From positions 5,332,001 to 5,396,000 of the forward strand of contig NZ_LN831029.1 in NCBI RefSeq assembly GCF_001457475.1: 64,000 nucleotides of DNA, given 5' to 3'. The DNA comes from Achromobacter xylosoxidans. GTDB lineage: Bacteria > Pseudomonadota > Gammaproteobacteria > Burkholderiales > Burkholderiaceae_B. A model generated the notes under the pieces. That model had not been told where the DNA came from. It saw only the letters and a program-made list of their open reading frames with translations, and searched no databases. Positions 8,838-21,020 of the stretch are shown in pieces; the first letter of the stretch is position 1; every line of letters starts with the position of its first letter. The translations under genes were made by a program, and so were the position numbers.

Positions 8838-10037
8838 TCAGGCTGCGGCCGGCTGCGCCAGCGGCTGTTCGCGCACCGGCAGGCACAGCAAGGCCGCGGC
8901 CACCGCCAGCGCCACGCCGAGCCACCAGACCAGGTCGTAGTTGCCGGTCTTGGCATAGGCGTAGCCGCCCAGCCAGACACCGATGAAGCTGCCGACCTGG
9001 TGCCCCAGGAAGACGATGCCGGACAGGGTCGCCGCATAGCGCAGGCCATAGATCTGGCCGATCAGCCCCTGCGTCAGCGGCACGGTGCCGAGCCAGAACA
9101 GCCCCATCCAGGCCGCGAACGCATACAGCACCCACGGCGACAGGGGCATCCACAGCAGCAGCAGGATGCCGAATGCGCGCATGCCGTAGACCACCGCGAG
9201 CAGCCGCTTCTTGCTGTACTTGCCGCCCAGCTTGCCGGCGTAGAACGACCCCAGCACGTTGAACAGCCCGATGAGCGCGATCGCGGTGGCGCCCTGCCCC
9301 GGCGTCAGGCCGCCGTCGGTGACGTAGGCCGGCAGGTGCAGCGTGATGAAGGCCGTGTGGAAGCCACAGACGAAATAGCTCCAGAACAGGAAGTGGAACG
9401 ACGGGTGCCGCACCGCCTGGCGCACCGCCGCCGCCAGCGACTGCTGCGGCCCGCCGTGGGCCTGCGGCCGGCCGCGCAGGAAATAGGCCAGCGGCGCGGC
9501 GCATGCCACGAACAGCGACAACGCCCACAGCGCGCCCGGCCAGTCCAGGCCGGTGATCAGCGCCTGGCCGGTCGGCACCACGGCGAACTGGCCGAGCGAG
9601 CCGCCGGCGCTGGCAATGCCCATGGCCGTGCTGCGGTAGGCCGGCGGCACCACGCGCGCCACCACCGGCAGGATCACGGGGAACGTCGTGCCGGCCTGCC
9701 CCAGGCCGACCAGCACGCCGGCGCTCAGGTACAGCGTGGTTTCGTCCGTGGCAAAGCGCGTGCCGATCATGCCCAGCATGTACAGCACCGCGCCCAGCGC
9801 GATGGTGCGGCCGGAGCCATGGCGGTCGGCCAGAATGCCCATGAAGATGCAGGCCACGCCCCACACCAGGTTCTGCAGCGCGAAGGCCATGGAAAACACA
9901 TCGCGGCCCCACCCGTGGGCCAGGCCCATGGGCTGCATGAACAGGCCAAAGGTGGCGCGCACGCCCATGGCAAGCAGCACCACCAGGGTACCCAGGATGA
10001 TGGTGCGCACGTAACGCGTATCGGTAGTGCTGGACAT
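8838..10037 (-). CDS. major facilitator superfamily transporter
   Basis: This is a 399-residue inner-membrane transporter with about twelve hydrophobic segments and an MFS loop 2-3 signature around GILADRHGSGRTI (about residue 68). The type is the small-solute or organic-anion exporter group, and the substrate is not determinable. It is divergent from the nitronate monooxygenase-like gene. The 220-bp space between them holds a palindrome matching the proposed MarR operators, about 160 bp upstream of this start, so it may belong to the same regulon. Confidence 0.88.
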   Translation of the reverse strand: MSSTTDTRYVRTIILGTLVVLLAMGVRATFGLFMQPMGLAHGWGRDVFSMAFALQNLVWGVACIFMGILADRHGSGRTIALGAVLYMLGMIGTRFATDETTLYLSAGVLVGLGQAGTTFPVILPVVARVVPPAYRSTAMGIASAGGSLGQFAVVPTGQALITGLDWPGALWALSLFVACAAPLAYFLRGRPQAHGGPQQSLAAAVRQAVRHPSFHFLFWSYFVCGFHTAFITLHLPAYVTDGGLTPGQGATAIALIGLFNVLGSFYAGKLGGKYSKKRLLAVVYGMRAFGILLLLWMPLSPWVLYAFAAWMGLFWLGTVPLTQGLIGQIYGLRYAATLSGIVFLGHQVGSFIGVWLGGYAYAKTGNYDLVWWLGVALAVAAALLCLPVREQPLAQPAAA

Positions 10038-10197
10038 GATTGTTCTTATTGATGGGGAAAGGCGCCCCCTCCTCGGGACGGCCGGGCCTTGGGCCAGACG
10101 CGCACATCATAAACAAATAACCTGGCGCGACCGGCAATACCCGCGTCGGCGCATCGCGCATGGCGTGCTCGCCGCGCCCGCTGGCGTGCCACGCAAA

Positions 10198-10224
10198 ATA
10201 TAGTTGATTTTATCAACCATATAT
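10198..10224. promoter_or_regulatory. palindromic operator, site 1 of a proposed MarR regulon
   Basis: The core GTTGATTTTATCAAC (10203-10217) has perfect 6-bp arms around TTT, flanked by ATATA on the left and CATATAT on the right. It ends about 34 bp before the start of the nitronate monooxygenase-like gene, in the expected promoter. It matches the sites at 15126 and 19219. The spacing of 3 between TTGAT and ATCAA rules against an FNR box, which needs 4. Confidence 0.7.
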
Positions 10225-10257
10225 TCCAGAATGGGTTTTTCCCTCTTCTGATCAGCC

Positions 10258-11211
10258 ATGACTCTGCAAACCCCGCTGACCCGCCTGTTGGGCACGCGCT
10301 ATCCCATCATCCAGGGCGGCATGAGCTGGGCCTCGTCGAACGCGGCGCTGGCGCTGGCGGTGTCGCGCGCCGGCGGGCTCGGCGTGATCGCCGCCGGCCC
10401 GATGTACCCCGAGGCGCTGCTGGCCGCCATCCGCGAGGTCCGCGCCGGCACCGACGCGCCTTACGCGGTCAACATCCCGCTCTACAACAAGCGCGCGCAG
10501 GAACACATGGACATCGCGCTGGCCGAAGGCGTGCCGGTCATCATCGCCTCGCAGGGCGGGCCGCAGAAGCACATCGGCCGCGCGCGCGAGGCGGGCGTCA
10601 AATGGCTGCAGGTCATCGCCAGCCCCGAGCATGCCGCCAAGGCCGAAGCGGCCGGCGTGGACGCGGTGATCGCCGTCGGCCTGGAGGCCGGCGGCCATCC
10701 CGGCCCCGATGAAATCGGCCTGCAAGTGCTGCTGCGCTCGGTGGCGCGGCGCGTGTCGGTGCCGGTGGTGGCGGCTGGCGGCATCGCCGACGGCGCCGGC
10801 ATCGCGGCCGCGCTGTGCCTGGGCGCCGCGGGCGCGCAACTGGGCACCCGGTTCCTGCTGACGCCCGAGGCCGGCGTGTGCGATGCCTACAAGGACGCGG
10901 TGCTGGCGGCCGGCGTGGCCGACACCACGCTGGTGGGGCGCGGCCGCTCGCCGGTGCGCATGCTGCGCAACGCCTTCGCCCGCGACTACCTTGCGGCCGA
11001 GCGCGGCGGCGACGAGGCCATGCTGGAGACGATGTTCGCCGGCAGTTCCCTCAAGCAGGCAGCCTTCGACGGCGACGTGCAGGGCGGCAAGGTCGAGGCC
11101 GGCCAGAGCGCCGGATTGATCGACAGCCTGCAGCCGGCCGGCGCCGTGATGGAGCAACTGGTGGCGGAAACGCGCGACGCGCTCAGGCGCGTGGCGGCGC
11201 TGGCGGGTTGA
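10258..11211 (+). CDS. nitronate monooxygenase / FabK-like FMN enzyme
   Basis: This 317-residue flavoprotein belongs to the 2-nitropropane dioxygenase family, whose members oxidise nitronates or reduce enoyl thioesters. It shows IIQGGMSWASS at 17-27 for FMN binding, the EAGGH motif at 143-147 with the active-site histidine, and the phosphate-binding region around GGIADG near 178. The 5' leader after the palindromic operator is short and has no strong ribosome binding site. Its neighbours are CoA-ester catabolic genes under the same apparent operator, so a role in acyl-CoA or toxic nitronate metabolism is possible. The family is secure; the substrate is unknown. Confidence 0.87.
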   Translation: MTLQTPLTRLLGTRYPIIQGGMSWASSNAALALAVSRAGGLGVIAAGPMYPEALLAAIREVRAGTDAPYAVNIPLYNKRAQEHMDIALAEGVPVIIASQGGPQKHIGRAREAGVKWLQVIASPEHAAKAEAAGVDAVIAVGLEAGGHPGPDEIGLQVLLRSVARRVSVPVVAAGGIADGAGIAAALCLGAAGAQLGTRFLLTPEAGVCDAYKDAVLAAGVADTTLVGRGRSPVRMLRNAFARDYLAAERGGDEAMLETMFAGSSLKQAAFDGDVQGGKVEAGQSAGLIDSLQPAGAVMEQLVAETRDALRRVAALAG

Positions 11212-11286
11212 CGGCGAAGCGCCGCCGTCGGTCGGCGCGGGACATCCGACGCCGGCTCAACGCCGGCGCAGCCTGGGCGTTGTCTT

Positions 11287-11712
11287 TCAGGCACTCGCTT
11301 CCCAAGGGTTCACGAGGCGGACCCCGCAACCGGAAAAATCGGACACGTTTCGCGTAACGAGCGTCATCCCGTGCACCAGCGCGGTAGCCGCGATGAAGGC
11401 ATCCCGTTCCGGACGCAGATCCGGCACATGCAACCTGGCGCAACGCAACGACACGGCCGCATCGAGCGGCAGCGTCCGGTTGGAGAATTCCGGCAGGACG
11501 CGATCGCGCATCCAGGCCCGCAGGCGCGCGCCCTGGTCGGCATCCCGCCGCTCCATGCGCAGGATGCCGATTTCGATTTCCATGAGCGTGATCGCCGAAA
11601 CGTAGAAGTTCACCGCGTCCTCGTTCGAGAACCAGGCGATCACGTTCCTGTCCGCCTTGCCGTCGCCGGCTTTGCGCAGCTCGGACAGCACATTGGTATC
11701 CAGCAGGAACAT
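11287..11712 (-). CDS. vapC: PIN-domain ribonuclease toxin, VapC type
   Basis: This is a 141-residue PIN-domain protein, the likely RNase toxin of a type II toxin-antitoxin pair. Acidic residues expected for the metal site are present: Asp5 in LDTNVLSE, Glu45, Asp104 in RDAFIAATAL and Asp125. The ATG overlaps the stop of the antitoxin gene (ATGA), showing translational coupling. The length is normal for VapC. It sits as an island between the nitronate monooxygenase-like gene and the Bug receptor. Target RNA unknown. Confidence 0.88.
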   Translation of the reverse strand: MFLLDTNVLSELRKAGDGKADRNVIAWFSNEDAVNFYVSAITLMEIEIGILRMERRDADQGARLRAWMRDRVLPEFSNRTLPLDAAVSLRCARLHVPDLRPERDAFIAATALVHGMTLVTRNVSDFSGCGVRLVNPWEASA

Positions 11713-11966
11713 CAGTCGACGTCCGCGGGACGGGGCAGCTCGCGTGAGCGCGGGGCATCGAGATCGATGCCGGCAAGGCCCGGCATCGACAATGCGCTGA
11801 CGAGATTTCGTTTTTGGCCGACCAGGCGCCAGTATTCCTCGATGCCGAGCAGGACGTGGGATGGCTTGCCGCGGTCCGTGATGAACACCGGGCCATGCAG
11901 GGCCGCCTTCTTGGCGCGGGTCACGTCCTGATTGAGTTCCCGGCTGGACAGTGTGGTGATAGACAT
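11712..11966 (-). CDS. vapB: Phd/YefM-family antitoxin
   Basis: This 84-residue protein starts MSITTLSSRELNQD, followed by AKKAALHGPVFITDRGKPS, the hallmark of the Phd/YefM antitoxin fold: an N-terminal DNA-binding part and a disordered C-terminal toxin-binding tail. The chosen ATG has AGGGGAT about 9 bases upstream; longer in-frame starts would run through the promoter palindrome. It precedes and overlaps vapC. It should repress its own operon through the palindrome at 11995-12010. The symbol is by role, because the partner is a PIN toxin while the antitoxin fold is Phd-like. Confidence 0.87.
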   Translation of the reverse strand: MSITTLSSRELNQDVTRAKKAALHGPVFITDRGKPSHVLLGIEEYWRLVGQKRNLVSALSMPGLAGIDLDAPRSRELPRPADVD

Positions 11967-11994
11967 GATGCATCCCCTGATCCTCACAAATAAC

Positions 11995-12010
11995 GTAGTA
12001 ACGTTACTAC
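11995..12010. promoter_or_regulatory. perfect 16-bp palindrome upstream of the toxin-antitoxin operon
   Basis: GTAGTAACGTTACTAC is a perfect palindrome 28 bp upstream of the antitoxin start codon. This is where a Phd/VapB autorepressor would bind over the promoter. AT content is locally high, unlike the flanking genes. Confidence 0.65.
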
Positions 12011-12117
12011 ATAGAAAGCAATGAAACAACCCCGGCAGCCAGGGCCACCGGGAGATTTTCCCGCTCATCAGGATCCGACCAGGGCGGCAAACCGTCATTC
12101 CGGCCGCCGGAACCGTC

Positions 12118-13089
12118 CTATTTCTTCATCAACCCCGCCGCCTGCACCAGCTTGCGCATGGTGGCCTGGTCCTTCTCGACGAAGGCGGTGGCCTCCGCCG
12201 GCGTCATGTTCCACAGATCCACCCCTTGCGCCTGCATCAGCTTGCTGTATTCAGGATCGGCGTTGATCTTGGCCACCGCATCGTTCAGACGCTGGAGGAT
12301 TTCCGGCGGCGTGCCCTTGGGCGCGGCCAGGCTGTACCAGGACGCCGACTCCGCGCCCTTCACCCCGGATTCGGCCAGGGTCGGCACATCCGGCAACAAC
12401 GGCGAGCGCTGGCCGTTGGCGTAGGCCAGCGCCTTGAGCCGGCCGCTACGGATGAACTGCAGGCTGGCGGCCAGGTTCAGCACCGCCATATCCACCTGGC
12501 CGCCCACCAGGTCATTGATGGCGGGCGCCGCGCCGCTGTAGGGGATGTGGACGATGTCCACGCCGGCGCGTTCGCGGAACAGTTCGGCGCCCAGGTGCGG
12601 CGAGCTGCCCGGCCCGGCCGAGGCATAGTTGATGCGGCCCGGTTCCTTGCGCGCCATCACGATCAATTGTTCGACGCTGTCGGCCTTGAGCGTGGGCCGC
12701 ACCACCAGCATGTTGGGCTGGTTGGCGACGATCGAGACGAAGGCGAAGTCCTTGATGCCGTCGTACGGCGTCTGCTGCATCAGCGGCGTCACCACGTGGG
12801 CGGCCGACGTGCCGAGCAACAGCGTGTAGCCGTCCGGCTTGGCCCGCGCCACGAAGTTGGCGCCGATGGCCGCGCCGCCGCCGGCCTTGTTCTCGACGAT
12901 GATGGTCTTGCCCAACTGCTTTTCCAGCTCGCGCGCCAGCGCCCGCCCCAGCACGTCGGCGGGACCGCCGGCGGCATACGGGTTGACCAGCGTGATCGGC
13001 TGCGAGGGATAGGAATCGGCGGCGACGACAGGGGCGCACAACGCGCCCGCCACCGCCACGCCGCACAGCAGGCGCTTCAGAGTCTTCAT
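12118..13089 (-). CDS. Bug-family (TctC-like) periplasmic solute receptor
   Basis: This is a 323-residue secreted binding protein with a Sec signal peptide (residues 1-24, MKTLKRLL to VVAADSYP). The Bug fold signatures are the start YPSQPITLVNPYAAGGPADV, then ENKAGGGAAIGA and the PDGYTLL loop. These bind carboxylates or other small organics for tripartite TctABC transport. No tctA/tctB genes are nearby, which is usual for the expanded Bug set in Alcaligenaceae. It lies 72 bases after the CaiB-type CoA-transferase gene and reads as the last gene of that catabolic operon, so its ligand may be the acid degraded there. Confidence 0.9.
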   Translation of the reverse strand: MKTLKRLLCGVAVAGALCAPVVAADSYPSQPITLVNPYAAGGPADVLGRALARELEKQLGKTIIVENKAGGGAAIGANFVARAKPDGYTLLLGTSAAHVVTPLMQQTPYDGIKDFAFVSIVANQPNMLVVRPTLKADSVEQLIVMARKEPGRINYASAGPGSSPHLGAELFRERAGVDIVHIPYSGAAPAINDLVGGQVDMAVLNLAASLQFIRSGRLKALAYANGQRSPLLPDVPTLAESGVKGAESASWYSLAAPKGTPPEILQRLNDAVAKINADPEYSKLMQAQGVDLWNMTPAEATAFVEKDQATMRKLVQAAGLMKK

Positions 13090-13161
13090 GGTTTGTCTCC
13101 TGGGATATTTGTGTTTTATGCGTGGTGCGGGGAAAGGCCCCGGGGCTCATGGCCCCGATGG

Positions 13162-14358
13162 CTAGATCGCGCCCTGCGCGCGTAACGCCTCGATCTGCGC
13201 CGGCGACAGGCCCAGCCGGCCCGCCAGCACGCTGTCGGTGTGCTCGCCCAGCAAGGGCGGACGCTCCAGCCGCGGATCGTCGAAACCATCGAACTTGAAC
13301 GGCACCGGCACCGCGCCGAAGCGGCCGATGGCAGGATGCTCGTAGCTGGCCACCATGCCGCGCGCCAGCACGTGCTCGTTGTGCAGGATTTCCTCGACGT
13401 CCAGGATCGGGCCGGCCGGCACGCCGCGCGCATCGCAGCGGCGACACAGTTCGTCGCGCGTCAGCCGCGCGGCGGCCGCCGACAGGCCGGCCATGACTTC
13501 GTCGCGGCGCGCCACGCGCACGGCGTTGCGCGCCAGCTCCGGATCGTCGGCCCATTGCGGCAGGTCGAGCGCCTCGCACAGCGGCTTCCAGTGCTGATCG
13601 CTGCCAGTTATCTGCACCCAGCGTCCGTCGCCGCACTCGAAGGCGGCGGACGGCACCCGGCCGGGATGTTCGGTGCCCAGCCGCGGCGGCACCTCACCCA
13701 GCGCGAAGTAACGCGCGGCCGCCAGCGACAGCAGGCCGACCTGGCCGTCCAGCATGGAGAAGTCGATGTGGCAGCCCTGCCCCGAACGCGCCCGCCCCAC
13801 CAGCGCCGACAGGATGCCGATGGCTGCCCACAGGCCCGAGGTCAGGTCGCTCACCGGCAGGCCCGGCTTGACCGGGCCGCCGCCGCGCTCGCCGGTCAGG
13901 CTCATGATGCCGCCCATGGCCTGGAATACGGTGTCATAGCCTTTGCGCGGCGCGTACGGCCCGGTCATGCCGAAGCCGGTGCACGAGAAATAGATCAGGC
14001 CGGGGTTGTCCGGCGCGATGTGCTCGCGGTCCAGCCCGTATTTGGCGAGCGTGCCGACCGGGAAGTTCTCGACCACCACGTCGCAGGTCTGCGCCAGGCG
14101 CCGGATCAGCGCCTGCCCTTCGGGGTGGCGGAAGTTCACCGTGACCGATTGCTTGCTGCGGTTGAAGGCCAGGTAATAGGCCGACTCGGTGCCGCCTTCG
14201 CCGCGCACCTTGGGCTCGAAGCCGCGCGTCTCATCGCCGCCGCCGGGCTGTTCGACCTTGATCACGTCGGCGCCCAGCTCGGCCAGGATCATCGAGGCGA
14301 ACGGGCACGCCAGCACGCGCGACAGGTCCAGGATGGTGACGCCTTCGAGCGGCCTCAT
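13162..14358 (-). CDS. class III CoA-transferase, CaiB/BaiF family
   Basis: This 398-residue enzyme moves CoA between carboxylic acids through an aspartyl intermediate. It shows MRPLEGVTILDLSRVLACPF at the start, GADVIKVEQPGGGD, and the conserved catalytic Asp in CHIDFSMLDG. Its ATG overlaps the stop of the upstream crotonase gene (ATGA), so the two are coupled. With the crotonase and the Bug receptor it forms an operon preceded by a proposed MarR operator. It would activate or swap the CoA of an imported acid; the identity of the acid is not visible. Confidence 0.9.
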   Translation of the reverse strand: MRPLEGVTILDLSRVLACPFASMILAELGADVIKVEQPGGGDETRGFEPKVRGEGGTESAYYLAFNRSKQSVTVNFRHPEGQALIRRLAQTCDVVVENFPVGTLAKYGLDREHIAPDNPGLIYFSCTGFGMTGPYAPRKGYDTVFQAMGGIMSLTGERGGGPVKPGLPVSDLTSGLWAAIGILSALVGRARSGQGCHIDFSMLDGQVGLLSLAAARYFALGEVPPRLGTEHPGRVPSAAFECGDGRWVQITGSDQHWKPLCEALDLPQWADDPELARNAVRVARRDEVMAGLSAAAARLTRDELCRRCDARGVPAGPILDVEEILHNEHVLARGMVASYEHPAIGRFGAVPVPFKFDGFDDPRLERPPLLGEHTDSVLAGRLGLSPAQIEALRAQGAI

Positions 14359-15089
14359 CGCGCCGCTCCCTGGCGAAAGCCGCGCATGATGACGTTGGCG
14401 TCGCGGCCCACGCCCAGCGCCTCGGCCAGCCCCAGGTCGGCCGCGCGATGGAAGGCGCGCTTGGTCAGGCCCATGGCGGCCGGCTCCCAGCCAGCCAGGC
14501 GTTGCGCCATCGCCAATGCCTGGTCCAGCACCTGCGCGGCGGGCGCGACGCGGTTGGCGATGCCCAGCTGCAGCGCGCGGGCGCCGTCGATGGGCTCGGC
14601 CATCGCCACCAGCTCGAAGGCATGCTTGCGGCCCACCTGCCGCACCAGGTTGGCCATGACCACCGCGGCCACGATGCCGTGGCGCAGTTCCGGATAGCCG
14701 AAGCGCACGTCCTCGGCCATCACGGTCAGGTCAGACGCCAGCGCCAGGCCGGCGCCGCCGCCGAGCGCATTGCCATGGACCGCGCCGATCACCGGCTTGA
14801 CCATGCGCGAGAACACCAAGTGCAGATCGGTAGTGAGGTCGGCGCGGCGCAGCACCGCGTCGGGCTGTTCCGGCGTCAGGGCCGAGAACTCGCCGGTGTC
14901 GGCGCCGGCGCAGAACGACTTGCCGTTGCCCGCCAGCACCACCGCGCGCACCGCGTCGTCGCGGTCCGCCTGGCGCAAGGCCTCCAGCAGCGCCGTGGTC
15001 AACGCGGTGTTCAGGGCGTTGTGCTTTTCCGGACGGTTCAGGCGCAGCAGCCGCACCACGCCCAGGTCTTCAATGATCAATTCCGACAT
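14355..15089 (-). CDS. crotonase-family protein lacking one catalytic glutamate
   Basis: This is a 244-residue enoyl-CoA hydratase/isomerase fold. The oxyanion-hole segments are FCAGAD at 59-64 and GNALGGGAG at 106-114. Aligned with rat crotonase, the Glu144 position is Gly114 while Glu164 is kept as Glu134 (20 residues apart as expected), so classical syn-hydration is doubtful and isomerase or another crotonase reaction is likelier. The start chosen is the ATG after GAAGAGGATATCCGTG; an upstream start would put the palindromic operator at 15126 inside the gene. It is first in the operon with the CaiB transferase. Confidence 0.85.
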   Translation of the reverse strand: MSELIIEDLGVVRLLRLNRPEKHNALNTALTTALLEALRQADRDDAVRAVVLAGNGKSFCAGADTGEFSALTPEQPDAVLRRADLTTDLHLVFSRMVKPVIGAVHGNALGGGAGLALASDLTVMAEDVRFGYPELRHGIVAAVVMANLVRQVGRKHAFELVAMAEPIDGARALQLGIANRVAPAAQVLDQALAMAQRLAGWEPAAMGLTKRAFHRAADLGLAEALGVGRDANVIMRGFRQGAAR

Positions 15090-15125
15090 CACGGATATCC
15101 TCTTCCAATGGCGACAAGCAAAGTG

Positions 15126-15140
15126 ATTGATTAAATCAAC
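15126..15140. promoter_or_regulatory. palindromic operator, site 2 of a proposed MarR regulon
   Basis: ATTGATTAAATCAAC matches the site 1 core at 13 of 15 positions. It lies 37 bp upstream of the crotonase start and directly after the marR gene, so it can control the crotonase-CaiB-Bug operon. TTGAT and ATCAA are 3 bp apart, not the 4 of an FNR box. Confidence 0.7.
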
Positions 15141-15179
15141 AATAAGGGTAAAAAAAGGCGCGGGGCGCGCGCCCACGCG

Positions 15180-15716
15180 TTAGCGCGGCTGCACGCCGCG
15201 GCCGCGGCGCGCCGGCACCTCCGCCTTGCATTCGTTCAACATCTCCAGCGCATGCGCCGTCAGCTTGTCCAGCATGCGCTCCATCGCCTCGCGCTCGGCA
15301 TCCGATAGCACCGACAGCATGCTTTCGTTGCGCTCGATCGCCGCGGGGAAAATTTCCTCGTACAGCGCGCGGCCGGCGCGCGTCAGGTCCAGGCTGACGC
15401 CACGGCCGTCCTGGCTGTCGGCGCTGCGCTGGATCAGGCCGCGCTCGATCAGTTCGGACACGGTGCGGCTGGCCTGGCTCTTGTCGATGTTGGCTTCGCG
15501 CGCCACGGCGTTCAACGACATGTCGGGCGCCGCGCCCAGCAGCGCGATGATGCGCCATTCGCGCGGACCGACGCCGTAGCGGCTTTCGTTCAAGCCGGCG
15601 GCAATGCGGCTGGAAACATAGGCCAGCCGGTTCAGCCGGTACGAGAACAGTTCCTTGAGCGCCCGGGGTGCGGGACGCGCGGCGGTGGCGGACTTGGATG
15701 CGGTGCGGGTGGCCAT
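15180..15716 (-). CDS. MarR-family transcriptional regulator
   Basis: This 178-residue winged-helix regulator has its core from about 30 to 165: MSLNAVAREANIDKSQASRT forms the recognition helix-turn-helix and DGRGVSLDLTRAG the wing. MarR proteins are dimeric repressors released by small ligands, often aromatic acids or CoA thioesters. It sits between two catabolic operons transcribed in the same direction. Three similar palindromes in the neighbourhood (10203, 15126, 19219) are the best candidates for its operators. The N-terminus is basic and Ala-rich (residues 1-20). The ligand is unknown. Confidence 0.9.
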   Translation of the reverse strand: MATRTASKSATAARPAPRALKELFSYRLNRLAYVSSRIAAGLNESRYGVGPREWRIIALLGAAPDMSLNAVAREANIDKSQASRTVSELIERGLIQRSADSQDGRGVSLDLTRAGRALYEEIFPAAIERNESMLSVLSDAEREAMERMLDKLTAHALEMLNECKAEVPARRGRGVQPR

Positions 15717-15803
15717 GGCGGACTCGTCAGGTGCGGGAAAACGTGGCGTTCGCGCCCGGCGCGCGCCACTGCCCGCATGATATACAAAGGCGGCGCGCGG
15801 CCA

Positions 15804-16754
15804 TCACGCGACCGCTCCCGCGGCAACGCCGATCAGCGGGTTCAGCCCGCTTTGCGCCACCCGGCTGTGCAGGGCGCGACCCAGCACTTCCTGGCAATGG
15901 GCCGAGACGGCCGCCAGCCCCGCCAGGTCCAGGCCGGTGCGCACGCCCATGGACTCGAACAGGCTGACCAGATCTTCGGTGGCGACGTTGCCGGTATGGC
16001 CGCCGCCGTAGCGCACTTTGGCCGGATGCCCGCCGACACCGCCGAAGGCGCAATCGAAGTGGGTGACGCCTGCCTCCAGCGCCGCCACGTAGTTCACCAG
16101 GCCGGTGCCGCGCGTGTCATGGAAATGCGCCACCGGGGTCACCTGCGGCACCTCGCGCGCCATGCGCCCATACAGGTCGCGCACCGATGCCGGCGTGGCC
16201 ATGCCGGTGGTGTCGCCCAGCGTGACAATGTCCACGCCCAGCGCGGCGAAGCGCCGCGCGTCGGCCATGACCGTCTCCGGATCGACGGCGCCTTCGAACG
16301 GGCAGCCGAACGCCACCGAAATCGTGCCGATCAGGCGGAAACGGCCGTCCGCCAGCCGCGCCATCTCCGCGATGTTGTCCCATTGGGCGGCGCGATCGCG
16401 CTTCAGGTTGCGCGTCGAATGCGATTCACTGGCCGAGACCAGCAGGCTGATCTCGTTGGCGCCGATGCCGGCATCCAGGTCGGCCCGCGCGCGCTCGACG
16501 GCGCGCGCATTGGCGCAGGTCGCCTTGTACCAGACGCCGGCGCGCCGCGGCAGCGCCGCCAGCAACTCGGTGGCGTCGGCGAATTGCGGCACCACCTTGG
16601 GATTGGAATACGAGGTCGCCTCGACCCGCTCGAAGCCCAGCGCGGCAAAGCGGTCGATCAGGTCGACCTTGACCGCGGTGTCGATGAAGTCCGGCTCATG
16701 CTGCAGGCCGTCGCGCGCGAAACATTCGCACAGCACCACGTCGCGCGCGCTCAT
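15804..16754 (-). CDS. HMG-CoA lyase-like protein with catalytic Cys replaced by His
   Basis: This 316-residue TIM barrel belongs to the HMG-CoA lyase (HMGL/DRE-TIM) family, which cleaves 3-hydroxy-acyl-CoA C-C bonds. RDGLQ at 14-18 and the metal histidines His210 and His212 (VAHFHDTRG) are present. The loop that carries the catalytic cysteine in HMG-CoA lyase (GGCP) reads GGHP at 241-244 here, and the loop after it is three to four residues longer before GNVATED. A true HMG-CoA lyase role is therefore uncertain and a related lyase or aldolase is likely. Its ATG overlaps the stop of the acyl-CoA ligase (ATGA). Confidence 0.85.
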   Translation of the reverse strand: MSARDVVLCECFARDGLQHEPDFIDTAVKVDLIDRFAALGFERVEATSYSNPKVVPQFADATELLAALPRRAGVWYKATCANARAVERARADLDAGIGANEISLLVSASESHSTRNLKRDRAAQWDNIAEMARLADGRFRLIGTISVAFGCPFEGAVDPETVMADARRFAALGVDIVTLGDTTGMATPASVRDLYGRMAREVPQVTPVAHFHDTRGTGLVNYVAALEAGVTHFDCAFGGVGGHPAKVRYGGGHTGNVATEDLVSLFESMGVRTGLDLAGLAAVSAHCQEVLGRALHSRVAQSGLNPLIGVAAGAVA

Positions 16755-18373
16755 GCCTGCTGCTCCAGTCCGAACAGCGCCAGCGCGTGGGCGCGCAGCT
16801 TGTTCTTCTGCACTTTGGAACTGCCGGTCATGCCGATGTGCTCGAAGCTGTCGACGATCTCGACATAACGCGGCACCTTGAAGTTGGCGCAATGCGCCTT
16901 GCACCAGGCCGTCAGCTCGTCCGGCGTGCAGTCCTGGCCTTCCTTGAGCAGCACGAACGCCGCCGGCACTTCGCCCAGGCGCGCATCCGGCACGCCCACC
17001 ACCTGCGCCATGCGCACGGCGGGGTGGCCGTGCAGGGTCTCTTCCACTTCCGCCGGCGCGACGTTCTCGCCGCCCACGCGGAACATGTCCTTCAGGCGGC
17101 CCACCATGCGCAGCCGGCCCGCCGCATCCATTTCGCCCAGGTCGCCGGTGCTGAGCCAGCCGTCCGCGCCAAGCGCTTTGGCGGTAGCCTCGGGCATCTT
17201 GTAGTAGCCCTTCATCACGCTCCAGCCACGCGCCTGGATCTCGCCCTGCATGCCGGCGGGCAGCGGCGCGCCCGTGCCCGGGTCCACCACGCGCACCTGC
17301 ATGCCGGGATGCGGCAACGCCCAACCCATGGCGCGCAGCTCGAAGGGATCGTCGTGCGCGGACAGCGTGATGTTGGGCGAGGCCTCGGACTGGCCGTAGG
17401 CGTTGCAGATGCCCGGCACGCCCATCACGTCGCGGATCTTGCCCATCACCTGCGGACCTGCCGCCGCCCATCCGCCGCGCAGATGGATGCGCTTGCGGTC
17501 GAAATCGGGATGTCCCATCAGCATGAGGAAGATGGTGTCGTTGCCGGACGTCAGCGTGCAGCGTTCTTCGTCGAGCATGCGCAGCGCCTCGGCCACGTCG
17601 AACTTCGGCAGCGTCAGCAGGCAGCAGCCGGTCATCAGGCTGACCAGGATCGACAGGGTGGTGCCGGCCACATGGAAGTACGGACGGATGCTGAAATAGC
17701 GGTCGTCGGGCCGCACGCCGATGCGCTGCGCCGCGGCCCAGGCGTTGGTCAGCATGTTGGCATGCGTCAGCATCACGCCCTTGGGAAACGAGGTCGTGCC
17801 CGAGGTGTACTGGATCAGCAACACGTCGTCGGGCGCCACGGCGCGCAGGGCGGCGTCGAGCTCGATATCGTCGACCGTCTCGCCGGCACGCAGGAAGTCC
17901 TGCCACGGCTGCGCGCCCGCGAGGCAGCGCGCGCCCAGCACCACGACGCGCCGCAGCAACGGCAGCGCCTCGCCGGGCAAGCCACTGTCAAGCGCCGGCT
18001 CGACCTGGGTGAGCAGGCCGAGGAAGTCGATGCCCAGGAATGAGTCGGCCGTCAGCAGCAGCTTGACGTCGGCCTGCCTGAGGCAGAACGCCAGCTCATC
18101 GGTCTTGAAGCGCGTATTGACCGGCACCGTCACGGCGCCCAGCATGGCGCAGGCATAGAACACCTGCACCCAGGTGCCGCCGTTGCCCAGCAGCACGCCG
18201 ACGTGGTCGCCACGGCGCACGCCGGCCGCATGCAGGCCGCGGGCGATACGTTGCGCGCCATCCTGCAGCGCGGCCCAGGTGTGGCGTTCGCCGGGCGCGA
18301 CGAAGGCCTCGGCGGCGCCGCGCTCGGCCACCTGGCGCGCCAGCGCCTGCGACAGGGTCATCGGACCGATCAT
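16751..18373 (-). CDS. AMP-forming acyl-CoA ligase
   Basis: This 540-residue ANL-superfamily ligase activates a carboxylic acid to its CoA thioester with ATP. The P-loop is YTSGTTSFPKG (about residue 185). The hinge region reads GRLKDMFRVGGENVAP, and the catalytic lysine region is GSSKVQKNKL near the C-terminus. The start at 18373 overlaps the stop of the preceding hydratase gene (ATGA), which decides it over longer frames that would run back into that gene. It is the middle gene of a three-gene coupled operon (hydratase, ligase, lyase-like). The substrate is not evident; medium-chain or branched acids are possible. Confidence 0.92.
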   Translation of the reverse strand: MIGPMTLSQALARQVAERGAAEAFVAPGERHTWAALQDGAQRIARGLHAAGVRRGDHVGVLLGNGGTWVQVFYACAMLGAVTVPVNTRFKTDELAFCLRQADVKLLLTADSFLGIDFLGLLTQVEPALDSGLPGEALPLLRRVVVLGARCLAGAQPWQDFLRAGETVDDIELDAALRAVAPDDVLLIQYTSGTTSFPKGVMLTHANMLTNAWAAAQRIGVRPDDRYFSIRPYFHVAGTTLSILVSLMTGCCLLTLPKFDVAEALRMLDEERCTLTSGNDTIFLMLMGHPDFDRKRIHLRGGWAAAGPQVMGKIRDVMGVPGICNAYGQSEASPNITLSAHDDPFELRAMGWALPHPGMQVRVVDPGTGAPLPAGMQGEIQARGWSVMKGYYKMPEATAKALGADGWLSTGDLGEMDAAGRLRMVGRLKDMFRVGGENVAPAEVEETLHGHPAVRMAQVVGVPDARLGEVPAAFVLLKEGQDCTPDELTAWCKAHCANFKVPRYVEIVDSFEHIGMTGSSKVQKNKLRAHALALFGLEQQA

Positions 18374-19134
18374 GCCTTGTCTCCCGCCGCGCCGAAGCCG
18401 GCGATGGCCTGCTTCCAGTCGCTGCCGCGCAGATTTTCCTCGATGGCCAGCAACTCGATCGCCATCGCGCCTTCGCGCGTGGTCGCCAATCCCTGGTCGA
18501 TGCTGCGTTTGGTCAGCCTGACGGTCAGCGGCGCGGCGCGCGCGATGGCCGCCGCCATGCGCGCCGCTTCGCCCGCCAGCGCGTCGGGCGCATATACATG
18601 ATTGACCAGGCCGATCTCGCGCGCTTCGGCCGCATCGAAACGGCGGCCGGTGAACAGCAATTCCTTGGCCTTGCGCGCGCCGGCGATGCGCGGCAGGCGC
18701 TGCGTGGCGCCGACCGTGCCCCACCCCACCTCCGGATAGCAGAACGTGGCCTCGGACGAGGCCAGCACGAAGTCGCAGGCGCCGGCGATCTCGCAACCGG
18801 AGCCGAACGCCGCGCCCTGCACCACCGCGATCACCGGCTGCGGCAGGCGTTCGATCGCGGCATAGGCAGCGAAGCCCTGTACCCGGCGCGCCGTCATTTC
18901 CGCGTTCGACATGGTCTTGCGCTCCTTGAGGTCGGCGCCGGCACAGAATGCCGTGCCGGCCGCGGCGATCAACACCACGTGCGCGTCCGGATCGTCAGCC
19001 AGTTGCTGCATGGCCTGCACCAATTCGGCGCACATGAGGGAATTGAGCGCGTTGCGGCTGTCGGGCCGGTTCAGCGTCACCGTGGCGACACGGTCCTGCA
19101 CGTCCAGCAGGATCGTGTGGAAAGTCGGGGTCAT
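18370..19134 (-). CDS. enoyl-CoA hydratase
   Basis: This 254-residue crotonase-family enzyme hydrates trans-2-enoyl-CoA. Oxyanion segments FCAGADLK at 63-70 and GAAFGSGCEIA at 107-117 are present. Both catalytic glutamates are kept, Glu115 and Glu135, in contrast to the paralogue at 14355. It is the first gene of the operon with the acyl-CoA ligase and the HMG-CoA lyase-like gene. The start ATG is 80 bp downstream of the proposed MarR operator at 19219. It likely acts as the hydration step between ligase and lyase. Confidence 0.92.
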   Translation of the reverse strand: MTPTFHTILLDVQDRVATVTLNRPDSRNALNSLMCAELVQAMQQLADDPDAHVVLIAAAGTAFCAGADLKERKTMSNAEMTARRVQGFAAYAAIERLPQPVIAVVQGAAFGSGCEIAGACDFVLASSEATFCYPEVGWGTVGATQRLPRIAGARKAKELLFTGRRFDAAEAREIGLVNHVYAPDALAGEAARMAAAIARAAPLTVRLTKRSIDQGLATTREGAMAIELLAIEENLRGSDWKQAIAGFGAAGDKA

Positions 19135-19213
19135 GCCTGCTCCTGGATGTTCTGGGTATGCGGCCGGACCGCCGTGCGGCGACGACGACTGGCCATGCCA
19201 GGCAATATAGGGC

Positions 19214-19233
19214 ATATAGTTGATTTAATCCAC
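19214..19233. promoter_or_regulatory. palindromic operator, site 3 of a proposed MarR regulon
   Basis: ATATA followed by GTTGATTTAATCCAC (19219-19233) repeats the layout of site 1, including the ATATA flank, with one arm slightly degraded. It lies upstream of the hydratase-ligase-lyase operon. Confidence 0.68.
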
Positions 19234-19349
19234 TAAATTTCGGTGCTTATCCAATGGTGTTACACTTGCGCGCCGGTCTTTCCCTGGAATATCAAAGCAC
19301 TAGGCGTCACTTGGCCTGATGCGATTCCAGCGCGAAGCCATCGCGCAGT

Positions 19350-19424
19350 CTCGCCGTAGTTAAATGGATATAACCGGCCCCTCCTAAGGGTCAATTGGTG
19401 GTTCGATTCCACCCGGCGAGGCCA
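19350..19424 (+). tRNA. tRNA-Arg (anticodon CCT)
   Basis: The cloverleaf is complete. Acceptor CTCGCCG pairs with CGGCGAG. The D arm is GTTA with TAAC and the anticodon stem is GGCCC with GGGTC. The loop CTCCTAA gives anticodon CCT, and the T arm is GGTGG with CCACC around TTCGATT. The discriminator G and the CCA end (19422-19424) are encoded. It reads the rare AGG codon. No integrase or attachment-site duplication lies next to it. Confidence 0.96.
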
Positions 19425-19736
19425 CCCATCCCCGGCCTCGATTCCGCAGGCCATCGCAAGAAAATTCCCCGCTTTCAGCCAGATGAGGGTTAATCCGGGC
19501 TACGCTCACGCGCCGCGCGCCGGTAGCGTCTCGGGACGCGTTTGGTGACGAATACGCCATCCGTCAATACGACCCCGATATTTTTTTGGGCGATGATAGC
19601 GAATCGTCTTGCGCGTCACTTGAAATTGCTGTTTAAATTCGACGCGTAAGCCTCTAATTCATCTGGACTTTTCCTGAACCGTCGCGAGCACGATCAGGGA
19701 AACAATTCTTCACAGACTGACAAGCCTGTTCAAACC
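19425..19736. other. 312-bp spacer between tRNA-Arg and the PBP7-like gene
   Basis: No gene is seen. A small hairpin with 5-bp arms (GCGTC-TCGG-GACGC, 19526-19539) could be a weak terminator or processing structure. Around 19580-19680 the DNA is clearly AT-richer than its surroundings and probably holds the promoter of the downstream gene, but no convincing -35/-10 pair could be chosen. Confidence 0.5.
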
Positions 19737-21020
19737 ATGGCATTTAACTGGAAACGTGCAATTGCGAACGCGATAGCGCCGGCGGCGCTGGCGATGTGCG
19801 CGCTCCTGCCCTCCGCCGCGCTCGCCGCGAAGAATACCGACCCCTGCAAGACCAACGCCAAGTCGGCCGCTTGCAAGGCGCAACAAGCCAAGAAGGCGCC
19901 CGCTCCCGCCAAGAAGGCCGGCGCCGGCAAGGCCGCCGCCCCCAAGCAGAACGCGGCCAAGGGCGCGCCCAAGGCAGCCGCCGGCAAGCAAGCCGCGCCC
20001 AAGTCGGCCGCCGCCAAATCCACGCCCAAGGGCGCCGCCGGCAAACAGGCCGCGGGCAAGGGTGCGCCCAAGCAGGCCGCCGGCAAAAAGGCGCCTCCCA
20101 AGGGCGGCAAGCAGGCCGTCGCGCAGCAGGGTTCGTCCAAGAAGGGCGCCGCCGGCAAGAACGGCAAGCCGAACAAACCGTCGCGCGCGCAGCGCACGGC
20201 CGCCGCTGCGGCGGCCGCCGCCATGCCGCCGCCCGCGGTGTCGGTGCGCGCCGAAGCCGCCGCGCTGCGTTCCAGCACCGCCTATGTGCAGGACCTGGCC
20301 ACGTCCACCGTGATCTTCGCCAAGAACGAAAACGTGGTGCGCCCCATCGCCTCGATTTCCAAGCTCATGACCGCGGTGGTGGTGGTGGATGCCAACCAGC
20401 CGATGGACGAGATGCTCGAGATCACCGATGAAGACATCGACGGCCTCAAGCACACCACCTCGCGCCTGCGCGTGGGCACCAAGCTGTCGCGCGGCGACAT
20501 GCTGCACCTGGCCCTGATGTCTTCCGAGAACCGCGCCGCCAACGCGCTGGGCCGCCATTATCCGGGCGGCCTGCCCGCGTTCGTGGCCGCCATGAACGCC
20601 AAGGCGCAGTCGCTGGGCATGACCAGCACGCACTTCATCGAACCCACCGGCCTGTCCAGCGACAACGTGTCGTCGCCGCACGACCTGGCCCGCCTGCTGC
20701 GCGCCGCCTCGCAGCGTCCGCTGATCCACCGCTACTCCACCGATACCGAGTACGACGTCGAGATCAACAACCGCACGCAGACCTTCCGCAACACCAACCT
20801 GCTGGTGCGCAAGCCCGACTGGGACATCAAGGTGTCCAAGACCGGCTACATCAACGAAGCCGGCGAATGCCTGGTGATGCTGGCGCGCATCAATGGCCGC
20901 GACCTGGCCATCGTGCTGCTGGACTCGCAGGGCAAGCTGTCGCGCATCGGCGATGCGGTGCGCATCCGCCGCATCGTGCAAAGCGAAGTGGCCATGGCCT
21001 CGGCCCAACCCGGCGGCTGA
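19737..21020 (+). CDS. pbpG: D-alanyl-D-alanine endopeptidase, PBP7-like, with long Lys/Ala-rich linker
   Basis: This is a periplasmic S11-family penicillin-binding protein that cuts peptidoglycan cross-links. Residues 1-31 are a signal peptide. The catalytic domain (about 178-427) has the SISK motif at 206-209, SEN at 263-265 and KTG at 368-370. Between them, residues 32-163 form a low-complexity stretch of repeated Lys-Ala-Ala-Gly-Pro units resembling histone H1-like proteins of Bordetella, with two cysteines (37 and 46) near its start. PBP7 of E. coli lacks such a linker. A strong terminator follows. The symbol is by family; the exact endopeptidase activity is inferred. Confidence 0.9.
   Translation: MAFNWKRAIANAIAPAALAMCALLPSAALAAKNTDPCKTNAKSAACKAQQAKKAPAPAKKAGAGKAAAPKQNAAKGAPKAAAGKQAAPKSAAAKSTPKGAAGKQAAGKGAPKQAAGKKAPPKGGKQAVAQQGSSKKGAAGKNGKPNKPSRAQRTAAAAAAAAMPPPAVSVRAEAAALRSSTAYVQDLATSTVIFAKNENVVRPIASISKLMTAVVVVDANQPMDEMLEITDEDIDGLKHTTSRLRVGTKLSRGDMLHLALMSSENRAANALGRHYPGGLPAFVAAMNAKAQSLGMTSTHFIEPTGLSSDNVSSPHDLARLLRAASQRPLIHRYSTDTEYDVEINNRTQTFRNTNLLVRKPDWDIKVSKTGYINEAGECLVMLARINGRDLAIVLLDSQGKLSRIGDAVRIRRIVQSEVAMASAQPGG

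Follow-up and report, generated by a model that had tools for sequence, protein, structure and literature searches.

The window analysed here is a stretch of 64,000 nucleotides from Achromobacter xylosoxidans (contig NZ_LN831029.1, positions 5,332,001 to 5,396,000), and positions are counted from its first nucleotide. Between 10203 and 19233 it holds three gene units that together encode six enzymes and one solute-binding protein, a gene for a MarR-family regulator, and three matching palindromes. An inverted repeat is present at each of the three predicted target promoters. The original prediction, made from the letters of this DNA, had read these palindromes as marks of one MarR regulon over a new catabolic cluster for coenzyme A (CoA) esters. 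The features are listed below; the operators are putative, and their scores come from a weight matrix described further on.

10203..10217: operator 1, GTTGATTTTATCAAC, 40 bp before the nitronate monooxygenase-like (NMO) gene; found by pattern and matrix (38.4), over a possible -35 (TTGATT-N17-CAGAAT)
10258..11211, + strand: NMO, a flavin mononucleotide (FMN) enzyme of the nitronate monooxygenase / FabK-like family (PF03060, E 7e-59); best solved relatives are FabK-type reductases
12118..13089, - strand: Bug/TctC periplasmic solute-binding protein (PF03401, E 5e-78)
13162..14358, - strand: class III (CaiB) CoA-transferase (PF02515); best solved relative 9br6 (E 9e-89), a succinate-hydroxymethylglutarate CoA-transferase
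14355..15089, - strand: crotonase 2 (PF00378); in the alignment the first catalytic Glu position is Gly and the second Glu is kept
15126..15140: operator 2, ATTGATTAAATCAAC, 36 bp before crotonase 2; found by pattern and matrix (34.1)
15158..15178, - strand: terminator-like hairpin with a T run, between MarR and operator 2; a consensus match only
15180..15716, - strand: winged-helix regulator of the MarR family, recognition helix with DKSQASR (PF12802/PF01047)
15804..16754, - strand: DRE-TIM lyase of the 3-hydroxy-3-methylglutaryl-CoA (HMG-CoA) lyase family, His replacing the catalytic Cys (PF00682, alignments)
16751..18373, - strand: acyl-CoA ligase forming adenosine monophosphate, with 4-bp overlaps with both neighbours (PF00501, E 3e-80)
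18370..19134, - strand: crotonase 1, enoyl-CoA hydratase (PF00378); both catalytic Glu positions are kept in the alignment
19219..19233: operator 3, GTTGATTTAATCCAC (+ strand), 84 bp before crotonase 1; found by pattern and matrix (38.8), over a possible -35/-10 (TGGATT-N17-TATATT, - strand)

For both crotonases the catalytic Glu positions are those of rat enoyl-CoA hydratase, and by this measure crotonase 2 may be isomerase-like. The unit behind site 3 consists of crotonase 1, ligase, lyase and MarR on the same strand, with 4-bp overlaps among the first three genes. Crotonase 2, CaiB and Bug form the unit of site 2, which stands directly after the MarR hairpin, and the NMO gene is the unit of site 1. 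A scan of the region found 8 terminator-like hairpins, to be read against 4.9 in shuffled sequence. A MarR gene does lie among the sites, as had been noticed; no separate site belongs to it, and it appears to close the site-3 operon, so that the regulator would control its own operon.

The three 15-mers were found at 10203, 15126 and 19219, where they had been predicted, and each differs from GTTGATTWAATCAAC by 1 mismatch. They do stand before three separate units, as claimed; the claim of a common spacing did not hold, the distances to the start codons being 40 bp (NMO), 36 bp (crotonase 2) and 84 bp (crotonase 1). At up to 3 mismatches the pattern matches the window 3 times, compared with 0.08 expected from shuffles, and 0 of 100 shuffles gave 3 matches. 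At up to 2 mismatches the complete genome of 6,813,182 bp holds 3 matches, which are operators 1, 2 and 3 only, and the reversed pattern gave 1; the random scatter that had been named as the refuting result was not seen. The flank shared by sites 1 and 3 is confirmed as ATATAGTTGATTT and belongs to a wider motif, the Achromobacter consensus being ATAGTTGATTAAATCAACTAT (41 sites from 14 Achromobacter loci). A weight matrix was trained on these 41 sites and on no other genus. Its scores in the window were 38.8 (operator 3), 38.4 (operator 1) and 34.1 (operator 2), the next best being 2.8. The pattern TAGTTGATNNNATCAACTA was found at up to 3 mismatches in 8 places of the genome (reversed control 1), of which 3 are the putative operators 1, 2 and 3 (33.8-36.4 over 19 core columns) and the other 5 score 8.5-16.2. 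Sites 1 and 3 overlie a TTGATT-like hexamer with a second hexamer 17 bp further on, both read by eye. The second hexamer is CAGAAT-like at site 1 in 16 of 16 loci and TATATT-like at site 3 in 15 of 15.

To follow the site beyond this genome, 43 genomes of the genus were searched for MarR (E 1e-30 or better), the lyase (E 1e-80 or better) and the site (up to 1 mismatch). All three are present in the same 21 genomes and missing from the same 22. All 54 sites in the genus are accounted for by the cluster: 53 lie on the MarR contig, less than 6 kb from MarR, and the remaining one is on another contig of a 1430-contig assembly, in which the MarR contig starts inside the ligase gene (L059). The reversed pattern gave 6 matches in 6 of the 43 genomes, 5 of them without MarR. 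In Achromobacter the genes are split three ways and the sites are single and near-perfect.

The lyase gene was found in 48 of 250 genomes of the family (15 of its own genus) and, at E 1e-95, in 2 of 398 genomes of the phylum, one of them the present genome. From the 33 family genomes outside the genus that carry the lyase, 32 loci were taken (L090-L121), G187 being left out for its short contig. All seven genes (NMO, crotonase 1, crotonase 2, CaiB, ligase, lyase and MarR) are present in 27 of the 32, and 5 are incomplete. In 27 of 27 full loci, from seven other genera, the best match of the Achromobacter-trained matrix is upstream of a cluster gene, in line with the expectation that the sites would recur in orthologous clusters. 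Matches scoring at least 15 number 108; 104 of them lie within the upstream windows, which cover 5.8% of the sequence. Of the remaining 4, L103 and L104 each have one within a Bug gene, L112 has one, and in L099 one stands before crotonase 1 but beyond the upstream window. In the five incomplete loci, which carry the lyase, no score exceeds 9.8. Short AT-rich palindromes occur near promoters, and the sites could be chance instances of what is usual there; with 3 of 3 genome-wide matches in one 9-kb cluster, a motif conserved across genera and the co-occurrence within the genus also contradicting it, we regard chance as an exceedingly improbable explanation.

The position of the operators changes with the arrangement of the genes. 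L105-L111 have a single run, NMO - crotonase 2 - CaiB - Bug - crotonase 1 - ligase - lyase - MarR, each run being preceded by two sites at a distance of 21 bp, the second of them sometimes weak (L109 4.7, L108 8.0). The pair of L111 occupies the gap between NMO and an enolase-superfamily gene of divergent orientation, and one more single site is found closer to NMO. L112 and L115-L118 have one run and a divergent MarR, the operators lying in the MarR/NMO gap, 40 bp apart. In the 12 single-run loci an operator (at least 15) stands before NMO in 12 and inside the run in none. Where the gene run is split, the units have their own operators; L094-L096, L098 and L100-L104, from a genus with named Pigmentiphaga members, are split and have 21-bp pairs in 9 of 9. 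Such pairs occur in 20 of the 27 full loci. The operators thus follow the transcription units, as predicted for one regulator over one pathway. In L090, L091, L093 and L097 a divergent Bug-CaiB pair uses the same operator region as crotonase 1, and judging from this shared region the regulon is likely larger there. As separate observations, operator-like sites stand inside the Bug gene at 10682 of L103 (26.5) and 10349 of L104 (26.9), and two such palindromes lie 32 bp from each other in L050 (G059, another genus).

Many regulators bind inverted repeats, and the link between palindromes and MarR rests on sequence comparison; the palindromes might then be operators of another regulator, the MarR gene merely travelling with the cluster. 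Three observations oppose this. The operators of five relatives (L112, L115-L118) occupy the divergent MarR/NMO gap, and MarR identity covaries with the best operator score (Spearman 0.84, n=34, confounded by phylogeny). The recognition helix, with DKS in 27 of 27 full loci and DKSQ in 19, and the site GTTGA-N5-TCAAC resemble CouR and its box. We therefore consider another regulator quite unlikely.

CouR of Rhodococcus jostii RHA1 is reported to be a MarR repressor that p-coumaroyl-CoA releases; four promoters have its box, ATTGA-N5-TCAAT, across their -35, and Asp65, Ser67 and Gln68 are the likely base-reading residues (PMC4737184). CoA-ester induction is presented in a second report as an emerging common trait of such MarR proteins in the catabolism of lignin derivatives (PMC5487221). 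As far as these texts go, the CouR regulon, like those of FerC and HcaR in hydroxycinnamate catabolism, resembles the present cluster in its MarR regulator (here a predicted repressor), its CoA-ester genes and the several units that share one inverted repeat. The CouR box lies over the -35; in the cluster, a possible -35 was read by eye at sites 1 and 3. D-x-S-Q is found in both recognition helices, a likeness of residue motif and not of protein alignment. In contrast, the CouR regulon contains other enzymes, and the text available describes no lyase of the kind found here; the relatives of the cluster mostly have operator pairs 21 bp apart, and the cluster MarR is the last gene of its target operon. 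By analogy with CouR and the CoA-ester-induced MarR proteins, a pathway acyl-CoA is the likely inducer.

The gene set also occurs outside the family. Three Alphaproteobacteria (Bosea, Paracoccaceae strain La 6 and Shinella plasmids) have the order lyase - crotonase - CaiB - crotonase - ligase - NMO in a single run, La 6 and Shinella with a MarR gene as well. Gemmobacter has NMO a few genes further on, Cupriavidus has the same gene set in a different order, and in Rhodococcus opacus the order is MarR - lyase - crotonase 2 - CaiB - crotonase 1 - ligase - NMO. The best matrix scores were 23.6 in La 6 (before lyase), 26.5 in Shinella (between MarR and lyase), 14.8 in Gemmobacter (before an ABC transporter solute-binding gene, with 13.6 before lyase) and 16.2 in Cupriavidus (before MarR). 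By gene content and order, the six enzymes are a unit spread across classes and one actinobacterium, with no local novelty. As to the claim that the pathway set is new, a literature search that covered few subscription papers brought up, in the text that was accessible, no paper with the gene set, the site letters or the lyase variants; the set itself recurs across classes.

Several results weigh against a single regulon under this MarR protein. An automatic promoter scan of 10000-19800 returned 0 promoter-like sites (0.8 expected in shuffles), and site 2 has no clear -10 or second hexamer 17 bp on. Allowing up to 2 mismatches makes the pattern unspecific genus-wide, with matches in 39 of the 43 genomes, and in a family scan 65 of 200 genomes had a match at up to 1 mismatch, counted in or out of clusters. 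The related loci and the 43 genomes share ancestry and are not independent trials. Matches elsewhere, some before another CaiB/Bug gene, occur in 4 of the 12 single-run loci (L112, L115, L116, L117), and the recognition-helix Gln differs in 8 of the 27 full loci. The Bosea locus has no operator (best matrix score 2.1). In Rhodococcus, GTTG-N7-CAAC boxes stand before MarR and before lyase, and the best matrix score, 5.9, is located elsewhere.

Taken with these points, the evidence argues that the cluster is most probably a CouR-like MarR regulon for the CoA-ester breakdown of an acid. The local MarR would bind the three palindromes and repress the three units, its own included, until an acyl-CoA intermediate of the pathway, as inducer, releases it. 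One regulon under the local MarR is strongly supported by the co-occurrence in 43 genomes, the seven other genera and the operators of the single-run loci, and it passes the comparative tests applied to it. What began as a remark on a sequence can thereby be tested as a regulon, its operators and regulator named and its enzyme set defined. How a regulon breaks up can be studied cleanly here, by comparing loci that have a single run with split loci that have operators at each fragment.

The lyase belongs by fold to the HMG-CoA lyase family (PF00682). Aligned with human HMG-CoA lyase, it keeps the positions of Arg41, Asp42, Glu72, His233, His235 and Asn275. The metal ligands (Asp42, His233, His235 and Asn275) and four catalytic residues of HMG-CoA lyase are given in PMC6941031; all four metal ligands and 2 of the 4 catalytic residues are kept. 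The position of Cys266 is His, with a 4-residue insertion (GGHPAKVRYGGGHTGN here, GGCPYAQGASGN in HMG-CoA lyase). This His is found in 119 of 119 readable sequences among the 120 best homologues (one is a fragment) and in 25 of 25 aligned sequences. The position of Tyr167 is Thr, a residue that the printed alignment shows at this place in 6nds too, a solved chain of the Cys type. Thus the cluster lyase shares fold family and metal ligands with human HMGCL and its bacterial homologues and differs from them by His for Cys266, the insertion and Thr for Tyr167. Going by these alignments it is not a canonical HMG-CoA lyase and should not bear that name; the cysteine that defines the enzyme is missing from a group of proteins with this annotation.

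These residues bear on whether the cluster is an HMG-CoA / 3-methylglutaconyl-CoA route (leucine or terpene end steps) with a local regulator. The closest solved structure of CaiB is the human succinate-hydroxymethylglutarate CoA-transferase, and the cluster has a crotonase hydratase beside its HMG-CoA lyase family member, as such a route would. The His for Cys266 and Thr for Tyr167 speak against it; the same genome has two other PF00682 proteins (L081, L082) that keep the Cys loop, and no carboxylase occurs among the cluster proteins. We judge this route unlikely. Apart from this question, the Cys-type HMG-CoA lyase gene L082 (C1:6049076-6049882) adjoins a CaiB-like frame (likeness by eye), a separate lyase-transferase pair.

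The protein families found fit the claim of a CoA-ester catabolic cluster. In the proposed order of steps, Bug would capture the acid, the ligase and/or the CaiB transferase would activate it to the CoA ester, crotonase 2 would shift the double bond and crotonase 1 would hydrate it. The His-type lyase would then split the 3-hydroxyacyl-CoA into acetyl-CoA and an aldehyde or oxo-acid. The FMN enzyme (NMO) would perform a redox step at some point of the route. A succinate-semialdehyde-type aldehyde dehydrogenase near the operon in Bosea, Shinella and Gemmobacter fits an aldehyde-releasing lyase; polyamine genes are also in these neighbourhoods and could explain the dehydrogenase instead. Polyamine-type ABC genes stand beside some alphaproteobacterial operons, and an enolase-superfamily gene near others. 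Clustering of neighbour families for the substrate returned mostly antisense open reading frames, and the neighbours were too varied to name it. Identification of the substrate would name a catabolic route.

The itaconate degradation cluster ict-ich-ccl has a MaoC-type hydratase (Ich) and a CitE-type lyase (Ccl), and neither a MaoC-type hydratase nor a CitE-type lyase was found among the cluster proteins. A branched C5 dicarboxylate (itaconate, mesaconate or citramalate) would be degraded by CoA transfer, hydration and cleavage of citramalyl-CoA, and the cluster could be read as such a pathway: the published account of itaconate degradation gives the same order of reaction types, from CoA transferase through hydratase to a lyase that cleaves a C-C bond to yield acetyl-CoA (PMC12290011). 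The present set differs in a second crotonase, a ligase, an FMN enzyme and MarR, and in having no acyl-CoA dehydrogenase or MmgE/PrpD gene. In view of the extra genes, degradation of a C5 dicarboxylate appears improbable.

Returning to the MarR-controlled breakdown of an acid through its CoA ester, the pathway is, as far as the comparisons go, a conserved unit with a divergent lyase. We tentatively suggest a wider interpretation, which is plausible and still doubtful: a route that is undescribed although widespread, with a range from Proteobacteria to Rhodococcus. Its His-type DRE-TIM lyase might cleave a 3-hydroxyacyl-CoA directly to acetyl-CoA and an aldehyde or oxo-acid, so that neither the dehydrogenase nor the thiolase of beta-oxidation would be needed. 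The CoA ester of the route would be sensed by a single MarR repressor, and the ancestral operon could have broken up in the Achromobacter line, with the operator copied to every fragment.

Some neighbouring genes were also considered. Site 1 sits in the divergent gap between NMO and a gene for a major facilitator superfamily (MFS) transporter of lactate/oxalate type (8838-10037, - strand), which adjoins the cluster in some species only. The MFS gene was rejected as an additional target of site 1: it is a core gene, present in 43 of 43 genus genomes, and five cluster carriers (G015, G035, G037, G038, G039) have it far away from the cluster. Between NMO and Bug, a PIN-domain gene and a Phd/YefM-type antitoxin gene occupy 11287-12098 (- strand). 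This pair was rejected as a member of the system, the PIN gene being present in 3 of the 14 Achromobacter loci L054-L067 (L054, L056, L066). A tRNA-Arg (CCT) gene at 19350-19424 adjoins operator 3 at the edge of the cluster and is a possible insertion point.

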